Both the position numbers and the translations under genes were made by a program. The notes below the pieces were generated by a model. That model saw only the letters and a list, made by a program, of their open reading frames with translations. It was not told where the DNA came from and did not search any database. This document shows positions 8,838-21,103 of a stretch of 64,000 nt of DNA, in pieces. The DNA lies in NCBI RefSeq assembly GCF_020515625.1, contig NZ_JAIWPJ010000003.1, forward strand, positions 62,001-126,000. The letters are read 5' to 3'. This stretch comes from Natrinema amylolyticum (lineage in GTDB: Archaea; Halobacteriota; Halobacteria; Halobacteriales; Natrialbaceae). Numbering within the stretch: the stretch's first letter is position 1; each line of letters starts with the position of its first letter.

Positions 8838-10325
8838 TCAGACCGTCCGGAGCAGTTCGAGGACGTCGGAAAACCCGACTCGACCGTTCTCGTCGAAGTC
8901 GAACCGTTCGGGATTGTTTTGGACACCGTCGGACTCGAGGTTGTCGAAGAACGCGTCGACGTCCTCGTGGGTCGTCTCCCCGTCACCGGTGACGTCGTCG
9001 TAGCGTCCGTCGCCGGTCGCGTCTCTGGCTTCGTACTCGCCGACCGGGATCGTCTCTGGGTCGGAATCGTCCTCATCACCGCTCTTCTCCGCGACGACCG
9101 CCGCGTACTCCTCGATGAGATGGCCGGACTCGCTCGCGTAGAGCTGGAACCCGTCGTGGTCCTCGGTGTCCTCGAGGACGACCTGCCACGGGAGGACGGC
9201 GTTGCAGTCGTACCCGTCGGCGACGTCGTACCACTCCGCGAGGGACTCGTTTTTCGTCTCGAGGTCGTGCTGGGTATCGTCGACGTTGAACTCGCCGAGA
9301 TAGGCGGGCTTGCCGATCTCCTCGTGGGCGTCGACGACGCGGTCTCGGATGTACTCGGCCCCGTCCTCGAGCGGAAGGTCCCAGTGATCGGGATAGAGGT
9401 GGAACGAACAGGCGTCGATCGTATCGATCGAGTGGTGTTCGATGTAGTCCTGGCCGTCCCAATCGTCGTTCGGGTAGTCGTCCTCCCACGTCCCGTAGTA
9501 GTGGCCCTCCGATCCCGTCGAGACGAGGTGATTGCCGTCGATATCCTTGATGTATGCGGACATGTCGGCGAACCAGTCGCCGAGGATCTCGCGGTGTTCG
9601 GGCGGCTCGAGATCGTCCATCTCTTCGGGAACGTCGTCCTGCTCGAGACGTGGTTCGTTGGCCAGTTCCCACAGCGCGATCGTCGGATCCTCGCGCCATT
9701 CGATCCCGCTGATCGAGTTCTCTCGCGTGAGGATCGTTTCGACGTGATTGCGGTACATTCCGCGCGTCTCGTCCATCGTGTAGAACTCGTAGCGTGACTC
9801 GGCACCCGCCCACTCGGCGTACTGGAGCATCCCGCCCTCGTGGTCCCAGTTGTCGACGAGCGTCGCGATGAGCCTGATCCCGCGGTCTCTGGCGGCCTCG
9901 ATCAGGTAATCGAGGTTCTCGAGGGCGTCCTCGTTGTACTCACCGGGTTCGGGCTGGAGTGCGAGGGGACCGTCTTTGGCCTCGCCGTGCGCCCAGAACC
10001 GAACGAGGTCGATTCCCAGGTCCTCGTAGAGATCGAAGACGTCGTCGATGCGCTGCTCGGTCCCCTCGTACTCGTGGGTGATCCAGAAGTTGTTCGCACC
10101 GTTGAAGTAGACCGGGTCGCCGTCGACGACGAACTCGGTACCGTCCGTCTCGACGTATGCGAGGTCGTCGGGGTCGGTCGTCGGTTCCGTCGCGGCCGCC
10201 GCCGTGCTGGCGGCGAAAGGGGAGATCACCGCGCCCGCACCGATCGCTTTCACGAAGCGGCGCCGCGTCGGTCCGTCCCGTCGATCGATTCCGTACTCGT
10301 CCGCCGTGCGTTCGTCCGAAGTCAT
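8838..10325 (-). CDS. GH5 endo-beta-mannanase-like hydrolase with Tat signal and C-terminal dockerin
   Basis: 495 residues. Twin-arginine signal at 20-46 (TRRRFVKAIGAG). The GH5 barrel spans about 55-415 and looks like subfamily 7 (beta-1,4-mannanase): FVVDGDPVYFNGANNFW, acid/base Glu224 in WELANEP, CSFHLYPDHWDL, nucleophile Glu345 in YLGEFN. An acidic linker then leads to a dockerin at about 428-495: boundary VGEYEARD, calcium loop 1 DVTGDGETTHED, helix, calcium loop 2 DFDENGRVGFSD, closing DVLELLRTV. Last gene of the minus-strand cluster, 91 bp after the preceding GH5. Secretion and mannan cleavage are inferred; other beta-glucan activity is possible. Confidence 0.9.
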   Translation of the reverse strand: MTSDERTADEYGIDRRDGPTRRRFVKAIGAGAVISPFAASTAAAATEPTTDPDDLAYVETDGTEFVVDGDPVYFNGANNFWITHEYEGTEQRIDDVFDLYEDLGIDLVRFWAHGEAKDGPLALQPEPGEYNEDALENLDYLIEAARDRGIRLIATLVDNWDHEGGMLQYAEWAGAESRYEFYTMDETRGMYRNHVETILTRENSISGIEWREDPTIALWELANEPRLEQDDVPEEMDDLEPPEHREILGDWFADMSAYIKDIDGNHLVSTGSEGHYYGTWEDDYPNDDWDGQDYIEHHSIDTIDACSFHLYPDHWDLPLEDGAEYIRDRVVDAHEEIGKPAYLGEFNVDDTQHDLETKNESLAEWYDVADGYDCNAVLPWQVVLEDTEDHDGFQLYASESGHLIEEYAAVVAEKSGDEDDSDPETIPVGEYEARDATGDGRYDDVTGDGETTHEDVDAFFDNLESDGVQNNPERFDFDENGRVGFSDVLELLRTV

Positions 10326-10416: not shown

Positions 10417-11925
10417 TCAGGTCCGCCGGAGCAGTTCGAGGACGTCCGAGAACCCGATTCGACCGTTTCCGTCGAAGTCGAACGCCTCGGGGTTCTCCTG
10501 AACGCCGTCGGATTCGATGTTCTCGAAGAACGCGTCGACGTCCTCGTGGTTCGTCTCTCCGTCTCCATCGACGTCGTCGTACAGCCCGTCGTCGTTCGTG
10601 TCCCGGGCCTCGTAGTCGCCGACCGCGATCGCGTCGCTTTCGTCGGTGCCACCGCCGCCGATCACGTCGTCTTTCGTCTCCTCGAGCCACTCGCGGACGA
10701 ACCAGCCCATCTGTTCGGGATCGTCTTTGAGCTCCCACGGCTGGCCGGCCCCGTCACCGGGCGAGTCGAAGAACGTGGGCGCCCACGTATCGTCGAAACA
10801 CCAGGCGATCCAGCCCATGTTCTCGGAGGACTCCAGCCACTTGCGGACGGGTTCGCCCCACCCGCTCGTCGTGCCGAACTCGACGCTCTCCCGGAACTCC
10901 TCGTCGGGATCCCAACCGAATTCGGTGATGATGACCGGGATCTCCTCGGCGGGCGCACCGTACTCGGGATCGAACGGGCCGACTTCGTACGTGTCGCCCT
11001 CCTCACCCCGCTCGAGCGTGTCGTATGGGAGGCCGTTGTCCGGGTAGATGTGGCCGGAATAGATCAGGTTCTCCCCGTCGAAGGGGTACTCGGCGGCGAA
11101 TTTCGTTCGGGAGGTCCAGTCGGGCGACCCGATGACGATCGGCGTCTCGGGTGCCTCGTCCCGGATCGAGTCGACCCACGGCTGAGCGGTGTCGCGCCAG
11201 AGCAGCCACTCGTCTTCCCTCGTCTGGACGTCCGGACCGTGTTCCCCGTAGGTCGACCACGTGACGGGGAGCGTCGGTTCGTTGAAAAGTTCGAAGAGAA
11301 CGTTTTCGTCGTCGGCGAAGGCCGGCGCGACCGCGCTCCAGAACTCCGTCAGCAGGTCGTCAGTGTCGACGCGCGGATCGAAGCCGAGGCCGTCGAGACT
11401 GTCCGCCCACTCGTCCTCGACCATCCCTTCCCCGTGGGCCATCGCCTCCACGTACGGCCGAATGATGTGGAAGTCGATCATCGCGTAGACGCCCCGATCG
11501 GCGAGCAGATCGACGGCCGGACGCAGGAGGTCGTCGACGACGTATTCCATCCCGCGGTCGTGGACCGCGTCTTCCCCTACCGGCAGCCGAACCGTGTTCG
11601 GGTGCCACTGCTCCCCGTCGGTCGCCTGCTCGAGGATCTCTCGCTGGCCTCTGGGGTGTATCGACTCGAGGTAATCCAGCGACGCCGGTGAGACGCCGCG
11701 GGGTTTCACCCGTTGTCCGTCCTCGGTCACGATCCACTTCCCGTCGGTTCGCAGGCGCGGCGTCGGATCCCCGACCGCCGCTGCCGATCCCGCCAGCCCG
11801 CCGAGTGCGAGGCCGGCCGTTCCGACGCCCGCCGCTTTCACGAACATTCGTCGCGTCGGTCGCCACGACTGCCGGTCCGCTCGGTCGGGTAGCCGCTTCT
11901 CGCCCGCACGATCATCGTGACTCAT
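10417..11925 (-). CDS. GH5 cellulase-like hydrolase with Tat signal and C-terminal dockerin
   Basis: 502 residues. Tat signal at 22-50 (TRRMFVKAAGVG). The GH5 domain covers about 58-420: IVTEDGQRVKPRGVSPASL at the start, acid/base Glu216 in FELFNEP, nucleophile Glu335 in VIITEFGWD, Trp-rich WIAWCFDDTWAPTFF near the end. A GGGGTDES linker precedes the dockerin (about 434-502), with calcium loops DVDGDGETNHED and DFDGNGRIGFSD. Loop 1 differs from its sisters in having Asn before His-Glu. The promoter region just upstream is an AT-rich island. GH5 family is certain by motif; cellulose or beta-glucan as substrate is inferred. Confidence 0.9.
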   Translation of the reverse strand: MSHDDRAGEKRLPDRADRQSWRPTRRMFVKAAGVGTAGLALGGLAGSAAAVGDPTPRLRTDGKWIVTEDGQRVKPRGVSPASLDYLESIHPRGQREILEQATDGEQWHPNTVRLPVGEDAVHDRGMEYVVDDLLRPAVDLLADRGVYAMIDFHIIRPYVEAMAHGEGMVEDEWADSLDGLGFDPRVDTDDLLTEFWSAVAPAFADDENVLFELFNEPTLPVTWSTYGEHGPDVQTREDEWLLWRDTAQPWVDSIRDEAPETPIVIGSPDWTSRTKFAAEYPFDGENLIYSGHIYPDNGLPYDTLERGEEGDTYEVGPFDPEYGAPAEEIPVIITEFGWDPDEEFRESVEFGTTSGWGEPVRKWLESSENMGWIAWCFDDTWAPTFFDSPGDGAGQPWELKDDPEQMGWFVREWLEETKDDVIGGGGTDESDAIAVGDYEARDTNDDGLYDDVDGDGETNHEDVDAFFENIESDGVQENPEAFDFDGNGRIGFSDVLELLRRT

Positions 11926-12092: not shown

Positions 12093-13631
12093 CTAGACGC
12101 GCCGGAGCAGTTCGAGGACGTCAGAGAACCCGGTTCGACCGTTTCCGTCGAAGTCGAACGCCTCGGGGTTCTCCTGGACGCCATCGGACTCGAGGTTGTC
12201 GAAGAACGCGTCGACGTCCTCGTGGGTCGTCTCTCCGTCGCCGGTGACGTCCTCGTAGCGTCCGTCACCATCTGTGTCCCGGGCTTCGTAGTCGCCGACC
12301 GCGATCGAATCCGAACCGTCGGTCGTCTCGGGGAGGTCGTCGGTGCGTCGATCGGCCAGATACGTCTGCCACCACTCGCCCTGATACTCCTCGCCGCCGA
12401 GGAGTTCCCACTCCAGGGAATCGTCGTCGGAGTCGAACATGGTCGGCTGCCAGGCCGGGTCGAAACACCAGATCTGCGGGTGAACGGTGTCGTATTCGTC
12501 GAAGAACGCCTCGAACATCGCGCCGTGTTCGGACGTCGTCCCCGTGAGGGGGGTCCCGGCATCGCCCTGGTAACCGAACTCCGTGAGGAACACCGGAACC
12601 TCCTCGGACGGCTCGCCGAAGTAGTCCCCGAGCGGTCGCAGCCCGTCGTGGCCGGCGTACACGTGGCCCGCGTATGCGAGATTTTCTCCCTCGAACTCGT
12701 GGCGCGGCGCCCAGTAGGTGTACTGGCTCCATCGCGGCGAGCCGATGATGACGACGTTGCGCTCGGCGTGATCACGGATGGCGTCGACCCACGGTTGGGC
12801 GGTCTCGCGCCACTGGAGCCAGGTCTGCTCGGCGTCGGCACCGCGAACGTCGTACTCCTCGCCCGGCTCCTGGCCGGCGTAGGGACCGATCGGCTCGTTG
12901 TACACCTCGTAGAGGACGTGGGAGTCGTCGGCGAACTCGGGCGCGACGGTGTTCCAGAACAGCCGGACCTCCTCGTCGAGGTCGGGATCGGTGTACTCGA
13001 GACTCGTGTCGGAGTGTCTATGGTAGTCGACGATACAGTAGACGCCGACCGCCTTACAGTGCTCCACGACCGGTCGGAGGTGATGCTCGACGTAGGCCTC
13101 GAGTTGCGTCCGCGTGAACGTTCCCGGGTCGACTTCGTTCTGCGGTTCATCGCTCACGCTGCCGTCGTCCGGGTCGACGGAAACGATGTCTCCGGTCTGG
13201 ACCGGGATGCGGATAATCCGCGCGTACCAGTTCCTGTCGGGGTCGGTCGCGTGGTCGATCGTCTCCGAGAGCGGCCGCCGCCACGACCGCGCCGTGCGCG
13301 CGGGATCGATCACGTTGACGCCGCGGAGCACGACCTCGTTTCCGGTCGGATCGCGGAGCACGTTCCCGTCGCGCTCGAGCCACGGCGTTTCGATTCCGCG
13401 ATCGGCCGCGCCGTCGGCGGCGCGTGCGGGATCGGCCAGCAGACTGGCCGCGACGCCGGTCGTGCCGACGCCGGCCATCGCGAGAAAGCCCCGTCGGGAG
13501 TGGCGCATGCCACCTGATCTGGGATCGCTCGGCCCGCCACCGTCGATCGCGTTCGGTGGCGATCGATTGGCATGAGTCGTTGGATCGTCCCTGTTCCGTT
13601 CTCGTCGCGTCTCGTGGTCGTTCGTGGTCAT
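12093..13631 (-). CDS. GH5 cellulase-like hydrolase with Tat signal and C-terminal dockerin
   Basis: 512 residues from the ATG at 13631; the Tat motif (HSRRGFLAMAGVG, 44-56) lies unusually far in, so Met42 at 13508 is an alternative start. The GH5 domain covers about 85-430: GNEVVLRGVNVIDP, VDYHRHSD, acid/base Glu246 in VYNEP, GSPRWSQYTYWAP, nucleophile Glu351 in FLTEFGY, IWCFDPAWQPTMF. The dockerin occupies about 444-512, with loops DVTGDGETTHED and DFDGNGRTGFSD. The catalytic domain closely resembles that of the first cluster gene at 18613-20472 (shared GSPRWSQYTYWAP and FGEPSE), pointing to duplication within the cluster. Confidence 0.9.
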   Translation of the reverse strand: MTTNDHETRRERNRDDPTTHANRSPPNAIDGGGPSDPRSGGMRHSRRGFLAMAGVGTTGVAASLLADPARAADGAADRGIETPWLERDGNVLRDPTGNEVVLRGVNVIDPARTARSWRRPLSETIDHATDPDRNWYARIIRIPVQTGDIVSVDPDDGSVSDEPQNEVDPGTFTRTQLEAYVEHHLRPVVEHCKAVGVYCIVDYHRHSDTSLEYTDPDLDEEVRLFWNTVAPEFADDSHVLYEVYNEPIGPYAGQEPGEEYDVRGADAEQTWLQWRETAQPWVDAIRDHAERNVVIIGSPRWSQYTYWAPRHEFEGENLAYAGHVYAGHDGLRPLGDYFGEPSEEVPVFLTEFGYQGDAGTPLTGTTSEHGAMFEAFFDEYDTVHPQIWCFDPAWQPTMFDSDDDSLEWELLGGEEYQGEWWQTYLADRRTDDLPETTDGSDSIAVGDYEARDTDGDGRYEDVTGDGETTHEDVDAFFDNLESDGVQENPEAFDFDGNGRTGFSDVLELLRRV

Positions 13632-13697: not shown

Positions 13698-13904
13698 TCA
13701 GACGTCCCGAAGGAGCTCGAGGACGTCCGCGAAGCCGACGCGGCCGTTTTCGTCGAAGTCGAATGCGTCGGGGTTGTCCCGGACGCCGTCGGCCTCGAGG
13801 GTCTCGAAGAAGGCGTCGACGTCCTCGTGGGTCGTCTCCCCGTCGCCGGTGACGTCTTCGTACAGGCCGTCGCCGTCCGCGTCCCGACTCCGCCACCGAC
13901 CCAC
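13698..13904 (-). pseudogene. Orphan dockerin module, remnant of a lost dockerin-bearing gene
   Basis: A 68-codon open frame from a GTG at 13904 that encodes only a dockerin. It begins at VGRWRSRD, which aligns with the VGDYEARD boundary seen in all five intact genes. Calcium loops DVTGDGETTHED and DFDENGRVGFAD and the ending DVLELLRDV follow. An in-frame stop lies two codons upstream (13908-13910) and there is no signal peptide or catalytic domain. The remnant sits 16 bp after the preceding GH5 stop codon. It is best read as the scar of a deletion or of recombination between near-identical dockerin sequences; an unexported decoy peptide is less likely. Confidence 0.75.
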
Positions 13905-13920
13905 CGCTCACCGGTTGCGC

Positions 13921-15975
13921 TCAGATCTTCCGCAGCAGTTCGAGGACGTCCGAGAACCCGATTCGACCGTTCTCGTCGAAGTCGAACTGCTCGGAGTTGT
14001 TCTGGACGCCGTCGGACTCGAGATTCTCGAAAAGCGCGTCGACGTCCTCGTGGCTCGTCTCTCCGTCGCCGGTGACGTCTTCGTACAGGCCGTCGTCGTC
14101 CGTGTCCTGGGCCTCGTAGTCACCGACCGAGATCGTCTCGTTGCCGACGGGACTCGTGTCGAACGGCACCTGATCGTCCCTGTGATCGGCGAGCATCTGC
14201 TTGAGGTAGACGCCGCTGTCCTCGCCGCCGATCAGGTTCCACTCGCATGGCGGCTCCTCGCAGCCGACCGGAATGTCCTCGAACGGCGTGTCGTAGAAGT
14301 TGTCGTTGACGAGGTCGAGTTCGCCCTCCTCGGTCTCCCACGGAACCTCGAACATTTTCGGCAGCCAACGGACGTCAGCACACCAGCCGACCCAGCTGAC
14401 CCGGTCATCCCCCTCGACCTGATCGAGGAACGGTTCACCGTACTCGGGGAGCGTACCCTGACCGGTGGTCGTTCCGCGCAGCCAGTGGGAGACGTCCGCG
14501 TTGTTGATCCAGCCGAACTCGGTGATGGCGACGGGGTGATGATCCATCGCGTTCTGCAGTCCCGCCGCTTCGTAGGCCTCCCAGCCGTAGCACGACTCCT
14601 CGTAGGGGTCGTCATCCACCGGGAGATAGGGGGCCTCGAGTTCCTCTCCGGTCTCGGCCTCGACGGCATCGGGACTCTGGTACTCCGTATCGTTGAACCA
14701 GTTGTTCATCTGGCTGACGTCGTGGCCCGCGTAGTTGTGCCAGGTGACGGCGATGTTGTCGTAACCGGCCTCGTTGAAGTTCCGCCAGTGGAGCGCCTGC
14801 ACCGACTGACACCAGCCGGGAACACCGACCAGCAGCACGCGGTCGGACTGATACTCGCGGATCTTCTCGATGATCGGGCCCATGAAGTCGTCGAGGAACG
14901 TGTCCCAGAGGGGCTTCTGTTTGTACGCTCCACAGCCCTCGACGGGACCCCAGATGCCCGGCGCGGTCGGCTCGTTGTACGGCTCGAAGATCACGTGGGG
15001 TTCGTCGGCGTACCGCTCGGCCACCTCGTCCCAGAACATGAGGACCTCGTCGAGCAGTTCCTGGTTGACCGTCCAGTTCTCGTACGCGTACGGCGTGCCC
15101 TCGAGGTTACCCTCGTTGAGACCCTCGACGTAGTCGTCGCCGGGCGTTTCCTGAATGTACGTCTGATCGACGTATCCCCAGGAACCCGGCGCGTCCTCGC
15201 CGAACATCTCGTGGCTGTTGTACGCCCAGTAGTTCGTGTAGTCGCTGTCGTACGGCAGGTGGTTCTCGGCGTAGGAGGGTTCCTCGATGCCCGGCGGCTG
15301 CTCGTGCCAGTGGCGGTGATAGTCGATGATGCAGTAGACGCCGCGCTCCTTGCAGCGCTCGACGATCGGTTCATAGTAGTTGTCGAGGTAGTCCTCGAGT
15401 TCCGCCTGCGTGAACGCCTGCGGCTGGGCCGGCCGTTGCTTCCGTCGATCGCTGTCGACCGCCTGCGGTGACTCGAGTTCGCCGTACTCGTACTCGGGGC
15501 CGGTGTGGCCCATGGGGTGGTGTGACCCGTCGTCCCTCGTGCCGATGTCTTGTGGTTGGGCGGGAACACGGATGACCCGCGGATGCCAGCCCGCCTCGTT
15601 GTTCGTCACCAGATCGAGGAGCTGTTCCGGCGTCTTCCCGCGAAGGTTCCGCGTCCGGTGGAGTCGCTTCGGATCGGGAATGCTGAGTCCCCGCATCTTG
15701 AACGTCTCGCCGTCCTCGTTGACGATCCGGTTGTCGTCGCTGACAGTCAGGTTCTGGAACTCGTCGATCCCGCCGGCCGCGGCGGTACCGGCGAAGCCGG
15801 CGCTCAGTCCGAGGCCGGCGACGCCCGCGGCGGCGGTCGTTCGCATCACGTTGCGCCGCGTGACCGAGATCGGCGACGTGCCGTCGGTCTCCGCCTGCGC
15901 GAGGACGCTCCGTCGCGTGTCCTCGTTCGTCGCTGTCGATTCGTCCGTCTGCTGTGTGGTGTCAGTCGGTTGCAT
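13921..15975 (-). CDS. Large GH5 hydrolase with Tat signal and C-terminal dockerin
   Basis: 684 residues, the largest of the five. Tat-type signal at about 38-68 (VTRRNVMRTTAAAG) after a hydrophilic 37-residue leader. The GH5 domain covers about 75-600: GETFKMRGLSIPDP, IIDYHRHWH, acid/base Glu335 in EPYNEPTAP, nucleophile Glu486 in AITEFGWI, VGWCADVRWLPKMF. Insertions at about 225-300 and 430-475 make it longer than its sisters. The dockerin (about 616-684) has loops DVTGDGETSHED and DFDENGRIGFSD and boundary VGDYEAQD. It lies directly downstream of the cohesin protein gene, 213 bp away. Substrate specificity cannot be read from sequence. Confidence 0.9.
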   Translation of the reverse strand: MQPTDTTQQTDESTATNEDTRRSVLAQAETDGTSPISVTRRNVMRTTAAAGVAGLGLSAGFAGTAAAGGIDEFQNLTVSDDNRIVNEDGETFKMRGLSIPDPKRLHRTRNLRGKTPEQLLDLVTNNEAGWHPRVIRVPAQPQDIGTRDDGSHHPMGHTGPEYEYGELESPQAVDSDRRKQRPAQPQAFTQAELEDYLDNYYEPIVERCKERGVYCIIDYHRHWHEQPPGIEEPSYAENHLPYDSDYTNYWAYNSHEMFGEDAPGSWGYVDQTYIQETPGDDYVEGLNEGNLEGTPYAYENWTVNQELLDEVLMFWDEVAERYADEPHVIFEPYNEPTAPGIWGPVEGCGAYKQKPLWDTFLDDFMGPIIEKIREYQSDRVLLVGVPGWCQSVQALHWRNFNEAGYDNIAVTWHNYAGHDVSQMNNWFNDTEYQSPDAVEAETGEELEAPYLPVDDDPYEESCYGWEAYEAAGLQNAMDHHPVAITEFGWINNADVSHWLRGTTTGQGTLPEYGEPFLDQVEGDDRVSWVGWCADVRWLPKMFEVPWETEEGELDLVNDNFYDTPFEDIPVGCEEPPCEWNLIGGEDSGVYLKQMLADHRDDQVPFDTSPVGNETISVGDYEAQDTDDDGLYEDVTGDGETSHEDVDALFENLESDGVQNNSEQFDFDENGRIGFSDVLELLRKI

Positions 15976-16188: not shown

Positions 16189-18444
16189 TCAGGCGACCGT
16201 GATCTCGACCTCGTGAGTGGTCTCGCGTCCCCGCTGGTCCGTCGCAGTGAGCGTCACCGTGTAGCTCCCACTGGAATCGTAGGAGTGGCCGGCGTACCAG
16301 CCGCTGGCAGTCGTTCCGTCACCGAGATCCCACTGAAGTTCTGTAGTCCAGATATCGTCGGGGGTTTCGTCCGTCACCCGGAAGTCGATGCGCTCGCCGG
16401 CGTCGACGTCCGTGGCGCTCGGATCGATCGTCGCCAGATGGTCTACCTCGAGCGGGATCTCGCCGTCGACCGGCTCCCACGCGTAGAGCTCCTCGTAGCG
16501 GGGCTCTTTGTCCTTGTTCGTCCACTGTGCGACCCAATCGTCACCGTTCCAGTGGACGCGGTCGCCCTCCTGATAGAGCGTGTCAGCGTCCCACTCGGGA
16601 TAGTCGCTGTCACTTCCGTCGCCGTCGCCATCGTCCGCGTCCGCGGTCGTGGCAGTCACCGTCGCGGCGTCGGTCTCCGTGCCGTCTTCACCGACGGCGC
16701 TGACACCGATCTCGTAAGAAGTTCCGGCCTCGAGGTCAGTGACGGTGATACTGGTCGAACTCAGGGTCGTCTCTCGCTCGCCGTCGACCCAGACGTCGTA
16801 CTCGACGGCGTTCGGATCGGAACTCCACGCGACCTCGACCGACGTCTCGTTTTCCGCGACGACCTCGAGTCCCTCGGGCGTGCTCGGCGGCGTATTGGCT
16901 TCCGCGGTCGTGGCAGTCACCGTCGCGGCGTCGGTCTCCGTGTCGTTCTCGCCGAGGGCACTGACACCGATCTCGTAGGTGGTACCGGACTCGAGGTCGG
17001 TGACGGTAGCGCTGCTCGCAGTCGTGGTGGTTTCCCGCTCGCCATCGACCCAGACGGTGTACTCGACGGCGTTCGGGTCGGTATTCCACGCCAGTTCGAC
17101 CGACGTCTCGGTCTCGGCGACGACCTCGAGATTCTCGGGGACGCTCGGCGGTTCGCCGTCCGGCTCGCCGTCGCCGACGGTGAGCATCGCCTCTTCGACC
17201 GTCGGTTCGATAGCAACGTTGTCGACATTGTCCTCGAGTCGGACGATGTCGACGTCGACGACGGTTTCGCCGTCTGCCACGCCGGCGAGTTCGATCCGAC
17301 CGAACTCGATATCAGTGGTCCCGGCGTCGACGGGATCGAGCGCCTTGAGTTTCGCATAGTCGTCTTCGACCTCGACGGTCTTGAACATCTCCTGGGCGTC
17401 GACGAACAGGTCGCCGAGTTCGGCGTCAGTGAAGGTCGCGACGTCGGGATCGATACCGACCTCGAGAGTGAATCCGACCACACCATCCGGCGCTTCGCTC
17501 AGGCCGAGATCGACGGCCGTCGTCTCGTCCGGATCGATCACCGCGTCGTCGAGGTTGACCGTGAGCGTGGGCGTCTCCGGCTCCGCACCGGTGACCGTCG
17601 TCGCCTGAACCGTCGCCGTCTCGGACGCCGTGTCGTCCTCGCCGAGAGCGGTGACACCGATCTCGTAGGTGGTGTCTGCTTCGAGTCCAGTGATGGTCGC
17701 GCTGCTCGAGGTCGTGGTAGTTTCCCGCTCGCCGTCGACTGAGACGGCGTATTCGACGGCGTTCGACACGGGACTCCACGCGACCTCGACCGACGTCTCG
17801 TTCTCGGCGACGACCTCGAGATCCGACGGCAGTGTGGGTGCGACTGGCTCGTCGATACCGTCACCGACCGTCAGCGTCGATACGTCGTAGTTGGCGTCGT
17901 AGATATTGTCTCCGTTGGGGATGGTCAGCATGATATCCACGAGTTCGATCTCGGTGGTGCCCTCACCCTGAGCCTCGAGGTGGTAGGTCGCCACCTCGTA
18001 CTCGGTCTCGCCGATTCCGTCCGGCGCGTACGGCTGGACGCGGAGTTGCGAGACGGAGCCGCCCGCCTCTTCGATATCCTCGTTGACGCTCTCCTCTAAA
18101 TCGAGGGGACTCTCCGGGAAGTAGTCGCCACCGTCCACCTGGGTGATCTGGGCGACATCGGGATCGAGCGCGATTTCGACGGCAGAGCCGATCGAACTAG
18201 CGGGGGAGTTTTCGAGCCGGACCGTCGCAGTCGTCGTCTCGCCGGATTGGATCTGCTCATCGGCGACGTCGACCGTCACCGTCGGGACGTCTGCCTGGGC
18301 CGCCACCGTCGATGTCCCGAGTGCGAGTGCACCCGCACTGGCACCGGCGGCCCGCATGAAGGTGCGGCGTGATGTAGACGTGTCCGTCGAGCGATCGGTT
18401 TCGGCGAACTGTTCCTCGTCGTGCGTGTCGATGGTATCGTTCAT
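16189..18444 (-). CDS. Scaffoldin-like protein: two cohesin-like domains, FnIII, CBM5/12-like and PKD domains
   Basis: 751 residues, non-catalytic. Order: Tat signal (TSRRTFMRAAGASAG, 24-38; cleavage near 50); cohesin-like 1 at 53-194 (VTVDVADEQIQSGETTTATV, EIALDPDVAQITQV); FnIII 203-284; cohesin-like 2 at 291-425 (GVVGFTLEVGIDPDVATFTD); FnIII 433-513 and 519-601; Asp-rich linker; aromatic CBM5/12-like module at 615-658 (YPEWDADTLYQEGDRVHW, WTNKDKEP, YAWEPV); PKD 664-751 (WDLGDGTTASG, GSYTVTLTATD). There is no C-terminal anchor, so the protein would be released or held on polysaccharide by the CBM. Flanked by dockerin-bearing GH5 genes, it fits a scaffoldin that binds two enzymes. Cohesin calls are by eye. 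Confidence 0.85.
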   Translation of the reverse strand: MNDTIDTHDEEQFAETDRSTDTSTSRRTFMRAAGASAGALALGTSTVAAQADVPTVTVDVADEQIQSGETTTATVRLENSPASSIGSAVEIALDPDVAQITQVDGGDYFPESPLDLEESVNEDIEEAGGSVSQLRVQPYAPDGIGETEYEVATYHLEAQGEGTTEIELVDIMLTIPNGDNIYDANYDVSTLTVGDGIDEPVAPTLPSDLEVVAENETSVEVAWSPVSNAVEYAVSVDGERETTTTSSSATITGLEADTTYEIGVTALGEDDTASETATVQATTVTGAEPETPTLTVNLDDAVIDPDETTAVDLGLSEAPDGVVGFTLEVGIDPDVATFTDAELGDLFVDAQEMFKTVEVEDDYAKLKALDPVDAGTTDIEFGRIELAGVADGETVVDVDIVRLEDNVDNVAIEPTVEEAMLTVGDGEPDGEPPSVPENLEVVAETETSVELAWNTDPNAVEYTVWVDGERETTTTASSATVTDLESGTTYEIGVSALGENDTETDAATVTATTAEANTPPSTPEGLEVVAENETSVEVAWSSDPNAVEYDVWVDGERETTLSSTSITVTDLEAGTSYEIGVSAVGEDGTETDAATVTATTADADDGDGDGSDSDYPEWDADTLYQEGDRVHWNGDDWVAQWTNKDKEPRYEELYAWEPVDGEIPLEVDHLATIDPSATDVDAGERIDFRVTDETPDDIWTTELQWDLGDGTTASGWYAGHSYDSSGSYTVTLTATDQRGRETTHEVEITVA

Positions 18445-18612: not shown

Positions 18613-20472
18613 TTAGGTCCGACGAAGCAATTCGAGAACGTCCGAGAAGCCGATTTGGCCGTTCTCGTCGAAGTCGAAGGCGTCGGGATTGTCCTGAACG
18701 CCGTCGGACTCGAGGTTCTCGAAGAAGGCGTCGACGTCTTCGTGTGTCGTCTCTCCGTCTCCGTCGACGTCGTCGTACAGCCCGTCGTCGTTCGTATCCC
18801 GCGCCTCGTGGTCGCCGACCGAGATCGTCTCGTCGCCGTCGATCGGACCGGGACCGACGTGTTTGTCGTTCTTCCCGTTGTCGGCGTCCGGATACGGGTC
18901 CTCGCCGGGCGCGATGGTGTCGCGGTCGCCGGCCAGTTCCTGATTCAGTTCGTGCCACCAGACGCCAGGCGTCTCGTCGTTCAGGTAGTTCATCCAGTCG
19001 TCGGCACCCTTCGCGCCGTCGTTCGCGCCCGGCGTCCCGTGTTCGAACATATTCGGCTCGTAGGTGTGGTCGAACGACCACGCCAGCGGGTGGACGTCGT
19101 AGTTCTCGATGAACTCCTCGTACTCCTGGATGTAGGGCTCACAGTCGCCACCGTGTTCGCCGCTACAGTCCATCCAGGGCGTATCGACGTGGTTGCCGCC
19201 GCCTTCGATCCACCCGAACTCGCTGAAGAAGACCGGGACGTGTTCGGACGGTTCGCCGAAGTACTTCGACAGCGGCCGTAGGTTGTCCTGCGTGTAGACG
19301 TGGGCGGTGTAACACATGTTCTCGGCGTCGAACTCGTTGTACGGCGCCCAGTAGGTGTACTGGCTCCACCGCGGACTCCCGATCGTGATCAACTGACCGT
19401 CCGCGTTGTTCTCGACCGTATCGACCCACGGCTGGGCGCGATCGACCCACAGGTCGTACCAGGCTTTCATGTCCTCGTGGGCGACGTCGTAATCGTCCGC
19501 CTCCCCACTGCCGGGCGCTACCGCCGGGTCAGAGAGTTCGCCTGCCTGTCGCTGCGGGCCGCCCCAGTCGCCGCCGTACGGGCCGGTCGGCTCGTTGTAG
19601 ACGTCGAAGATCACGTGGTCGTCGCCGGCGTACCGACTGGCGATGACCTCCCAGAACATGTGTAACTCCTCGTCGAGCGCGTTCGTAATCTCCGGCGGCT
19701 CGAGGTAGATGTCGTCTTCCTCGAGGTCGAACGCCTCGAGGATGTTCTGTTCGTGGATCAGGTCCCAGATCTCGTCGACCTGGTCCTCGCCGTGCCAGAG
19801 CACGCCCCGCTCGCCACAGACTTCGGGATGTCGCCAGTCCTCACCGCCATCGGACGAACACTGCCAGACGGTCGGGTCGACGCCGTGATTCTTGTGGTCC
19901 TCCTGATGGAAGACCGGGTAGTGACGATGGTAGTCGATCATCACGTAGGCGCCGCGCTGGGCTCCGAGTTCGACGAGATCGTCGAGGAAGGCCTCACAGT
20001 ACCATCTGAGGTCGTCCCTATCGAACTGGCCCGGCAGGGCCGGGCCCCAGTCGTCGTCGTGGGGCATCTGTCCCGGTTGCGGATTGCGCGTCGCTGCGGC
20101 GATGAACGCGGGCATTACCGGCACCCGGACGATGTTGGTATGCCACCCCTGGCTCTCGTCGGTGGCCAGCCTGAACGTCTCGGGAGCGGTCTGGCCCCGC
20201 CAGTTACGGCTCTGTTCACCCGGGTCGGCGATGTTCACACCCCGAAGGATGACCTCGTTTCCGTCCGGGTCGACGATCTGGTTTTCGTCCCGGGCTAACG
20301 GCGGGAGAGTGGCTTCCTGTGCTGCTACAGAGCTCGTGACGCTACCGAGACCGCCGAGTGCGAGCACGCTCGTCCCCGTGGCCTGTAGTATCGTTCGGCG
20401 TGACCTCGAGAGATCCCGACTGGTGCGATTCGACTGTGCCTCTGAATCGTGTAAATCCGTATTCTCTGACAT
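18613..20472 (-). CDS. GH5 cellulase-like hydrolase with Tat signal and C-terminal dockerin (first gene of cluster)
   Basis: 619 residues from the ATG at 20472. An upstream extension to 20634 is possible but would place 54 odd residues before the Tat signal. Tat motif SRSRRTILQATG at 22-33. The GH5 domain covers about 58-510: GNEVILRGVNIADP, MIDYHRHYP, acid/base Glu294 in DVYNEPTGPYGG, GSPRWSQYTYWAP, nucleophile Glu418 in FFSEFGWI, LAWSFDHTYEPNMF. It carries Cys pairs absent from its shorter sister at 12093-13631. A linker leads to the dockerin (about 551-619) with loops DVDGDGETTHED and DFDENGQIGFSD. It is followed by the scaffoldin-like gene 168 bp downstream. Confidence 0.9.
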   Translation of the reverse strand: MSENTDLHDSEAQSNRTSRDLSRSRRTILQATGTSVLALGGLGSVTSSVAAQEATLPPLARDENQIVDPDGNEVILRGVNIADPGEQSRNWRGQTAPETFRLATDESQGWHTNIVRVPVMPAFIAAATRNPQPGQMPHDDDWGPALPGQFDRDDLRWYCEAFLDDLVELGAQRGAYVMIDYHRHYPVFHQEDHKNHGVDPTVWQCSSDGGEDWRHPEVCGERGVLWHGEDQVDEIWDLIHEQNILEAFDLEEDDIYLEPPEITNALDEELHMFWEVIASRYAGDDHVIFDVYNEPTGPYGGDWGGPQRQAGELSDPAVAPGSGEADDYDVAHEDMKAWYDLWVDRAQPWVDTVENNADGQLITIGSPRWSQYTYWAPYNEFDAENMCYTAHVYTQDNLRPLSKYFGEPSEHVPVFFSEFGWIEGGGNHVDTPWMDCSGEHGGDCEPYIQEYEEFIENYDVHPLAWSFDHTYEPNMFEHGTPGANDGAKGADDWMNYLNDETPGVWWHELNQELAGDRDTIAPGEDPYPDADNGKNDKHVGPGPIDGDETISVGDHEARDTNDDGLYDDVDGDGETTHEDVDAFFENLESDGVQDNPDAFDFDENGQIGFSDVLELLRRT

Positions 20473-21103
20473 GGTGTGATTCTCGTCCCCATCGAACGAG
20501 TCCGTGATCCGTCCGTTGGGAACGCCGAGGGTTTCGACCCCTCTCGATCTATGATCGATCCATACAGTTATAAAATTTGTGTGTTTTATGTTGAATATTA
20601 TGTTTAAGCAGTACAAAAATAAATATGTTGACAATCAATAGATTACATACGTTAGTAGCAAAATCAGCCCGTCCTATTTCCTATATTTGGTTGACACTAC
20701 ATAAAATCGATATACGGACCTGTCGTCCACTTTCACTGAATAACGACACAGATTCGATAGGCGGCAAAAATATACTATATATTATATTTATATTATTATA
20801 TAATATTTGTCTCAGAAATGGGTGTGTGATGATTCTTAATTTACATCTTTGCGGAGTGAGTGTCGCGACCGAGACGAGTTCCGAGAAAGCGGAAAACACC
20901 TGGTTTTCCGGGCGGTTCGATGCCAAACGAGAGTCCCCATCCACGGTATCGAGACCGCGGGAATCGACGTCTTCATCTACATTTACGTCCACTTTCAGTA
21001 GTTGACGGCCGGGGCTGGCCGCTCGATTCGGGTGACAGTCACGACGCAACGCCAACTGAGTGGCCGCGCCGGATTTATAGCTACCTCGTTCCTATGGCCC
21101 CCT
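20473..21103. other. AT-rich intergenic region between the cellulase cluster and the DUF460 gene
   Basis: About 630 bp with no convincing gene. A stretch from about 20560 to 20860 is extremely AT-rich, peaking at 20766-20812 (AATATACTATATATTATA and similar). TATA-like TTATAAAATT near 20570 could drive the first GH5 gene with a leader of about 70-80 bases. The base composition breaks sharply with both neighbours and may mark the edge of an acquired block. Confidence 0.6.
21074..21079 (+). promoter_or_regulatory. TATA box of the DUF460 gene
   Basis: TTTATA about 28 bp before the GTG at 21104; this spacing fits a leaderless transcript and supports that GTG as the real start. Confidence 0.6.

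Follow-up and report, generated by a model that had tools for sequence, protein, structure and literature searches.

A two-cohesin protein among dockerin-bearing GH5 enzymes of Natrinema is a probable scaffoldin of a minimal cellulosome-like system

Cellulosomes have been described from bacteria, mostly anaerobes. In the bacterial simple cellulosomes (PMC11557425), a secreted non-catalytic scaffoldin that combines a CBM with several cohesins goes together with dockerin-bearing GH enzymes, and such simple primary scaffoldins have neither an anchor nor a dockerin. According to PMC9012536, which refers to Peer et al. 2009, the archaea that possess cohesins or dockerins had no multi-cohesin scaffoldins, and in 2010 GASdb found no cellulosome components in archaea. 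The 2023 comparative study of haloarchaeal cellulose use (PMC10267330) brings up cellulosomes solely as a mechanism of bacteria; the words 'cohesin' and 'dockerin' do not occur in its main text. For the mannan/cellulose cluster of Natronoglomus mannanivorans, PMC10963439 names a 'GH5/CBM6 endoglucanase' of 1755 aa and an 'S-layer glycoprotein' of 258 aa, with cohesins unmentioned. Our literature search, whose coverage included few subscription journals, returned no paper on a haloarchaeal scaffoldin; those that it gave on how haloarchaea use cellulose and mannan make no mention of cohesins.

We analyzed a window of 64,000 nucleotides from Natrinema amylolyticum in which a single 12-kb cluster holds two sockets and five plugs, that is, one protein with two predicted cohesins and five GH5 enzymes with dockerins (Table 1). 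We consider it quite probable that the product of the central gene serves as primary scaffoldin in a minimal cellulosome-like system. The protein would leave the cell through the Tat pathway in the folded state. Its two cohesins would take the C-terminal Ca2+-loop dockerins of the adjacent enzymes (one mannanase and four endoglucanase-like proteins), the CBM5/12-PKD tail would keep the enzyme pair on an insoluble beta-polysaccharide and the FnIII domains would act as spacers. Since the scaffoldin has no anchor, the complex most likely leaves the cell and stays on the substrate, as in the bacterial 'simple' cellulosomes, while some enzymes may instead dock on single-cohesin proteins at the cell surface.

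Table 1. Features of the scaffoldin cluster (positions in the window; residues refer to the scaffoldin)
Feature	Position	Strand	Remarks
E1, GH5 mannanase-like (GH5_7 type)	8838..10325	-	dockerin 8841-9050; PDB mannanase 8gf3, E 3e-57
E2, GH5 endoglucanase-like	10417..11925	-	dockerin 10423-10629, 26.4 bits, above cut-off
E3, GH5 endoglucanase-like	12093..13631	-	dockerin 12096-12305, above cut-off
Orphan dockerin, 69-aa frame only	13701..13907	-	remnant of a deleted sixth enzyme
E4, GH5 endoglucanase-like	13921..15975	-	dockerin 13924-14133, above cut-off
Scaffoldin gene	16189..18444	-	751 aa; Tat - Coh1 - Fn3 - Coh2 - Fn3 - Fn3 - CBM5/12 - PKD
PKD domain, protein C-terminus	16195..16431	-	residues ~672-750; Pfam PKD_4 1e-14
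CBM5/12-like module	16471..16602	-	residues 615-658; Pfam E 0.0013, 19.2 bits, under 26.2 cut-off
FnIII 3	16645..16884	-	residues ~521-600; Pfam fn3 and alignment with the other FnIII copies
FnIII 2	16897..17148	-	residues ~433-516; Pfam fn3 and alignment with the other FnIII copies
Cohesin 2	17167..17577	-	residues 290-426; predicted fold; profile match at genome C3:79164-79580
FnIII 1	17590..17844	-	residues ~201-285; Pfam fn3 and alignment with the other FnIII copies
Cohesin 1	17857..18291	-	residues 52-196; predicted fold; class distinct from cohesin 2
Tat signal region, N-terminal	18295..18444	-	residues 1-50; no lipobox Cys; Pfam TAT_signal E 0.015
E5, GH5 endoglucanase-like	18613..20634	-	dockerin 18619-18825

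An earlier note on this DNA, made from the letters alone, had proposed a scaffoldin of the order cohesin-FnIII-cohesin-FnIII-FnIII-CBM-PKD with a CBM5/12-like module and with neither anchor nor dockerin, and the reading frame bears out each of these points. The three FnIII domains are recognized by Pfam in the whole protein (E 7e-23), and the NCBIfam Tat model TIGR01409 scores 16.8 bits against a cut-off of 16.7. The binding module by itself stays below the Pfam cut-off; we nevertheless accept residues 615-658 as CBM5/12-like and as a putative carbohydrate binder because homologous CBM5/12-PKD pairs, in haloarchaeal GH18 chitinases and in the scaffoldin of one relative, reach 31-43 bits. There is no Cys in the entire sequence and therefore no lipobox, nor is there a C-terminal transmembrane segment or hydrophobic C-terminus, and the dockerin profile detects no dockerin. 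The protein is secreted and non-catalytic and has two cohesins, the minimum for a primary scaffoldin; the dockerin with which the scaffoldin of an anchored (complex) cellulosome attaches to an anchoring scaffoldin is absent. As in the bacterial simple cellulosomes, a secreted non-catalytic protein with more than one cohesin and a putative CBM accompanies dockerin-bearing GH enzymes, and it carries no known cell-wall module. The Natrinema protein differs in being archaeal, in having only two cohesins, which belong to two classes, in its FnIII spacers, in a CBM5/12-PKD pair instead of CBM3, in Tat export and in its strong acidity (D+E 23%, K+R 3%). In anatomy the system is cellulosome-like, with dockerin binding predicted, and we regard it as an archaeal variant of the bacterial scaffoldin system.

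The five enzymes that had been counted as partners of the scaffoldin are indeed all dockerin-bearing GH5 proteins. Their types were assigned from PDB matches, which for E2-E5 against GH5 endoglucanases are weak to moderate, and all five have the acid/base (NEP) and nucleophile (GEF/TEF/SEF) Glu motifs of GH5. Each of the five adjacent enzymes ends in a dockerin; PF00404 scores above its cut-off for three of them, and in the alignment all five show the two Ca2+-type loops of a type I dockerin. A profile made from this alignment matches the CelS dockerin (2mte, 1daq) with E 0.001, some eukaryotic EF-hand proteins ranking higher. In the 4.7-Mb genome the profile detects seven dockerins, namely those of E1-E5, the orphan and a PhoX phosphatase at C2:332152. 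At the site of the orphan, the relative G072 keeps a 757-aa dockerin enzyme (L030:13717-15990), of which 2.1 kb is gone from the window at ~13874-13878. The orphan is what this deletion left of the enzyme.

Where the complex is held is the point on which a second reading is built. The enzymes could mainly dock on membrane-tailed single-cohesin proteins at the cell surface, the two-cohesin protein being a secondary, substrate-bound branch. In three relatives (G066, G068, G069) the scaffoldin has as its neighbour a protein of ~240 aa whose only cohesin is of the second type and which bears a PGFG-hydrophobic-Arg tail, and a single-cohesin protein also lies next to the large scaffoldins of the loci L076, L078 and L079. 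The nearest counterpart in Natrinema amylolyticum itself, encoded at C2:331601, is a single-cohesin protein whose C-terminal tail is hydrophobic (hydropathy 2.31). Against this reading, the GH5 cluster of the window's lineage contains no anchored cohesin gene, the C2 cohesin shares no more than 37% identity with the cohesins of the cluster and adjoins a PhoX phosphatase that bears its own dockerin, and the PGF-CTERM model stays below cut-off on the single-cohesin proteins of the clusters. With their weak PGF-CTERM-like tails the ~240-aa proteins are candidate anchors by sequence, but that the cell surface is the main site seems to us unlikely, if worth keeping in mind. The earlier note had stated that the usual way of tethering was closed to the scaffoldin, which overstates the case, as the anchorless state is normal for the simple primary scaffoldins of bacteria (PMC11557425). 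It had also left room for an anchoring partner encoded elsewhere. For the enzymes such a partner finds weak support in the C2 cohesin and in the tailed cohesins of relatives, so that enzymes might dock there; the scaffoldin cannot dock on the C2 cohesin because it has no dockerin.

In the reading that we prefer, that of a released scaffoldin, the two modules are cohesins. The whole-protein Pfam scan of the scaffoldin reports no cohesin. In a search of the whole genome PF00963 misses both modules and matches another protein, at C2:344617; therefore the silence of Pfam is not evidence against cohesins. With PF00963, a criterion of sequence and not of structure, cohesin 2 alone reaches 16.6 bits, below the cut-off of 24.1, and 14 of 25 relatives match the same model (best E 5e-6); the cohesins stay under the Pfam cut-off. 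A sequence profile against PDB finds the cohesin 5lxv at E 0.05, outranked by an unrelated oxidoreductase at 0.03, and is weak when taken alone. We built AlphaFold models of the cohesins from the window sequences and sequences of named relatives. The cohesin 2 model (residues 289-427, pLDDT 92) gives a Foldseek E of 2e-9 against PDB, nearly all top matches being cohesins, and superposes on 1g1k with VIA Z 15.8 (rmsd 2.3, 131 residues) and on the archaeal A. fulgidus cohesin 2xdh with VIA Z 14.9. For the cohesin 1 model (residues 51-197, pLDDT 83), where the top matches are again nearly all cohesins, the Foldseek E is 4e-9 and the VIA Z is 13.9 with 2vo8 (rmsd 2.4, 123 residues) and 13.6 with 2xdh. 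Thus, the models give both modules the jelly-roll fold of a cohesin, as had been proposed for residues 53-194 and 291-425. A plain Ig or FnIII reading of these two regions is ruled out by the fold searches. A cohesin fold by itself does not prove dockerin binding. The Archaeoglobus fulgidus cohesin 2xdh, of the same fold, is described as non-cellulosomal.

The scaffoldin is found in 10 of the 125 genomes of the family, the relatives being 52-91% identical, and dockerin enzymes flank it in nine of the ten, that is, in eight of nine relatives. Chance does not account for an architecture that is shared by nine further genomes and that has dockerin enzymes alongside in eight of these. The exception, G055 (L034), has a scaffoldin orthologue without flanking dockerin enzymes and only two dockerins elsewhere. 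Across the family, 13 genomes with a multi-cohesin scaffoldin have 2-47 dockerins (median 9), whereas 45 dockerin-bearing genomes without one have 1-2; these counts from other genomes are raw profile matches, and the difference (Mann-Whitney p 1e-10) is uncorrected for shared ancestry. All 54 family genomes with cohesins also have dockerins, but we prefer the relation to dockerin number because a PhoX protein with both modules largely drives the co-occurrence. No scaffoldin relative was found on the viral contigs searched, and a plasmid search gave only partial matches to the FnIII, CBM and PKD parts.

These data also bear on a third reading, in which the protein is a CBM helper or an adhesin for the substrate, and its cohesin-fold domains either have a structural role as beta-sandwiches or take a ligand other than a dockerin. 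The scores below the Pfam cut-off, the weak Big_12 matches of 14 of the 25 cohesins, the adhesin CLIPPER domain among the fold matches of cohesin 2 (Z 12.5) and the solitary scaffoldin of G055 would fit; however, cohesins fill the top fold ranks, and the scaffoldin recurs next to many dockerin enzymes and tracks their number, which makes this reading very improbable. That the system is decaying and the complex vestigial, the lineage having lost one enzyme, as the orphan dockerin suggests, and perhaps an anchor, of which the cluster holds none, we regard as more improbable still, since the scaffoldin and all five remaining enzymes are undamaged, the enzymes having complete dockerins and the catalytic Glu motifs, and the nearest relatives (91% and 75%) are likewise without an anchor gene, yet their clusters are complete.

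If the protein is a scaffoldin, its two sockets may not be equivalent. Cohesins 1 and 2 are 28% identical. In the tree the first-position cohesins of all ten genomes form one clade (support 100/99) apart from all other cohesins of the set, and the second-type cohesins have been duplicated within genomes. These scaffoldins carry two or three cohesins. The separate clades indicate that two socket classes have been kept. The dockerins inside each genome resemble one class, and cohesin 1 may bind a different partner. The idea of mixed enzyme pairs, put forward in the earlier note, therefore remains plausible, but with two deeply separate and conserved cohesin clades the pairing may be non-random.

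Larger versions occur in other haloarchaea. Cohesin profile matches are present in 128 of 392 genomes of the order, many of them PhoX phosphatases with an internal cohesin next to a single-cohesin protein. The locus L079 (G007) encodes a 1768-aa scaffoldin (L079:1075-7434) with a GH5 domain followed by eight cohesins, beside a 258-aa single-cohesin protein, and its protein sizes match Table 1 of the Natronoglomus mannanivorans study (PMC10963439; 258, 759, 589, 741 and 577 aa). That mannan/cellulose cluster resembles the one of Natrinema in its dockerin-bearing enzymes, which there are of GH5, GH5_7 and GH10, but differs in that the scaffoldin is this single GH5 and 8-cohesin protein beside a single-cohesin protein. 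In L078 a GH5 domain precedes at least five cohesins, and G008 has one 2104-aa frame with 10 cohesins. Scaffoldins bearing a dockerin are found in L076 (five cohesins), L077 (three cohesins) and L084. The genome G127 (L082-L085), which we read as Halococcoides cellulosivorans HArcel1, a confirmed cellulose-degrader, matches the dockerin profile ~70 times and the cohesin profile 14 times; its proteins include multi-cohesin ones with dockerins and a two-cohesin protein with PGF-CTERM above cut-off.

On balance, we think it rather likely that haloarchaea have true cellulosomes which have been overlooked, from the two-cohesin form of Natrinema through the 8-10-cohesin forms of the Natronoglomus group to the adaptor-containing and PGF-CTERM-anchored form of Halococcoides cellulosivorans with its ~70 dockerins. 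They would be assembled near salt saturation in aerobes, and the cohesin class that has been conserved as a clade of its own would provide a second docking code. The conserved Natrinema scaffoldin and its larger counterparts, which occur in haloarchaea growing on cellulose or mannan, would then add a second domain of life, and aerobic brines close to saturation, to the range of cellulosome-like assembly. They also suggest a way in which haloarchaea break down insoluble polysaccharide, a matter called 'almost unknown' in the comparative study of 2023 (PMC10267330).

Some further proteins were noted along the way. The scaffoldins at L076:5392-12093 and L077:6140-7774, with five and three cohesins, end in a dockerin and are possible adaptor scaffoldins, and a GH5-FnIII-cohesin-dockerin enzyme is also found among these two loci. 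In the Natrinema amylolyticum genome, the protein at C2:344617 (L009:5443-6258) is secreted, with a Pfam-level cohesin and a hydrophobic C-terminal tail, and is missed by the cohesin profile of the window. The PhoX-type phosphatase on C2 (L008:9398-12945) has an internal cohesin-like domain in addition to its C-terminal dockerin. The pairing of a PhoX gene with a single-cohesin gene recurs across Halobacteriales and is possibly a non-cellulosomal cohesin-dockerin pair.
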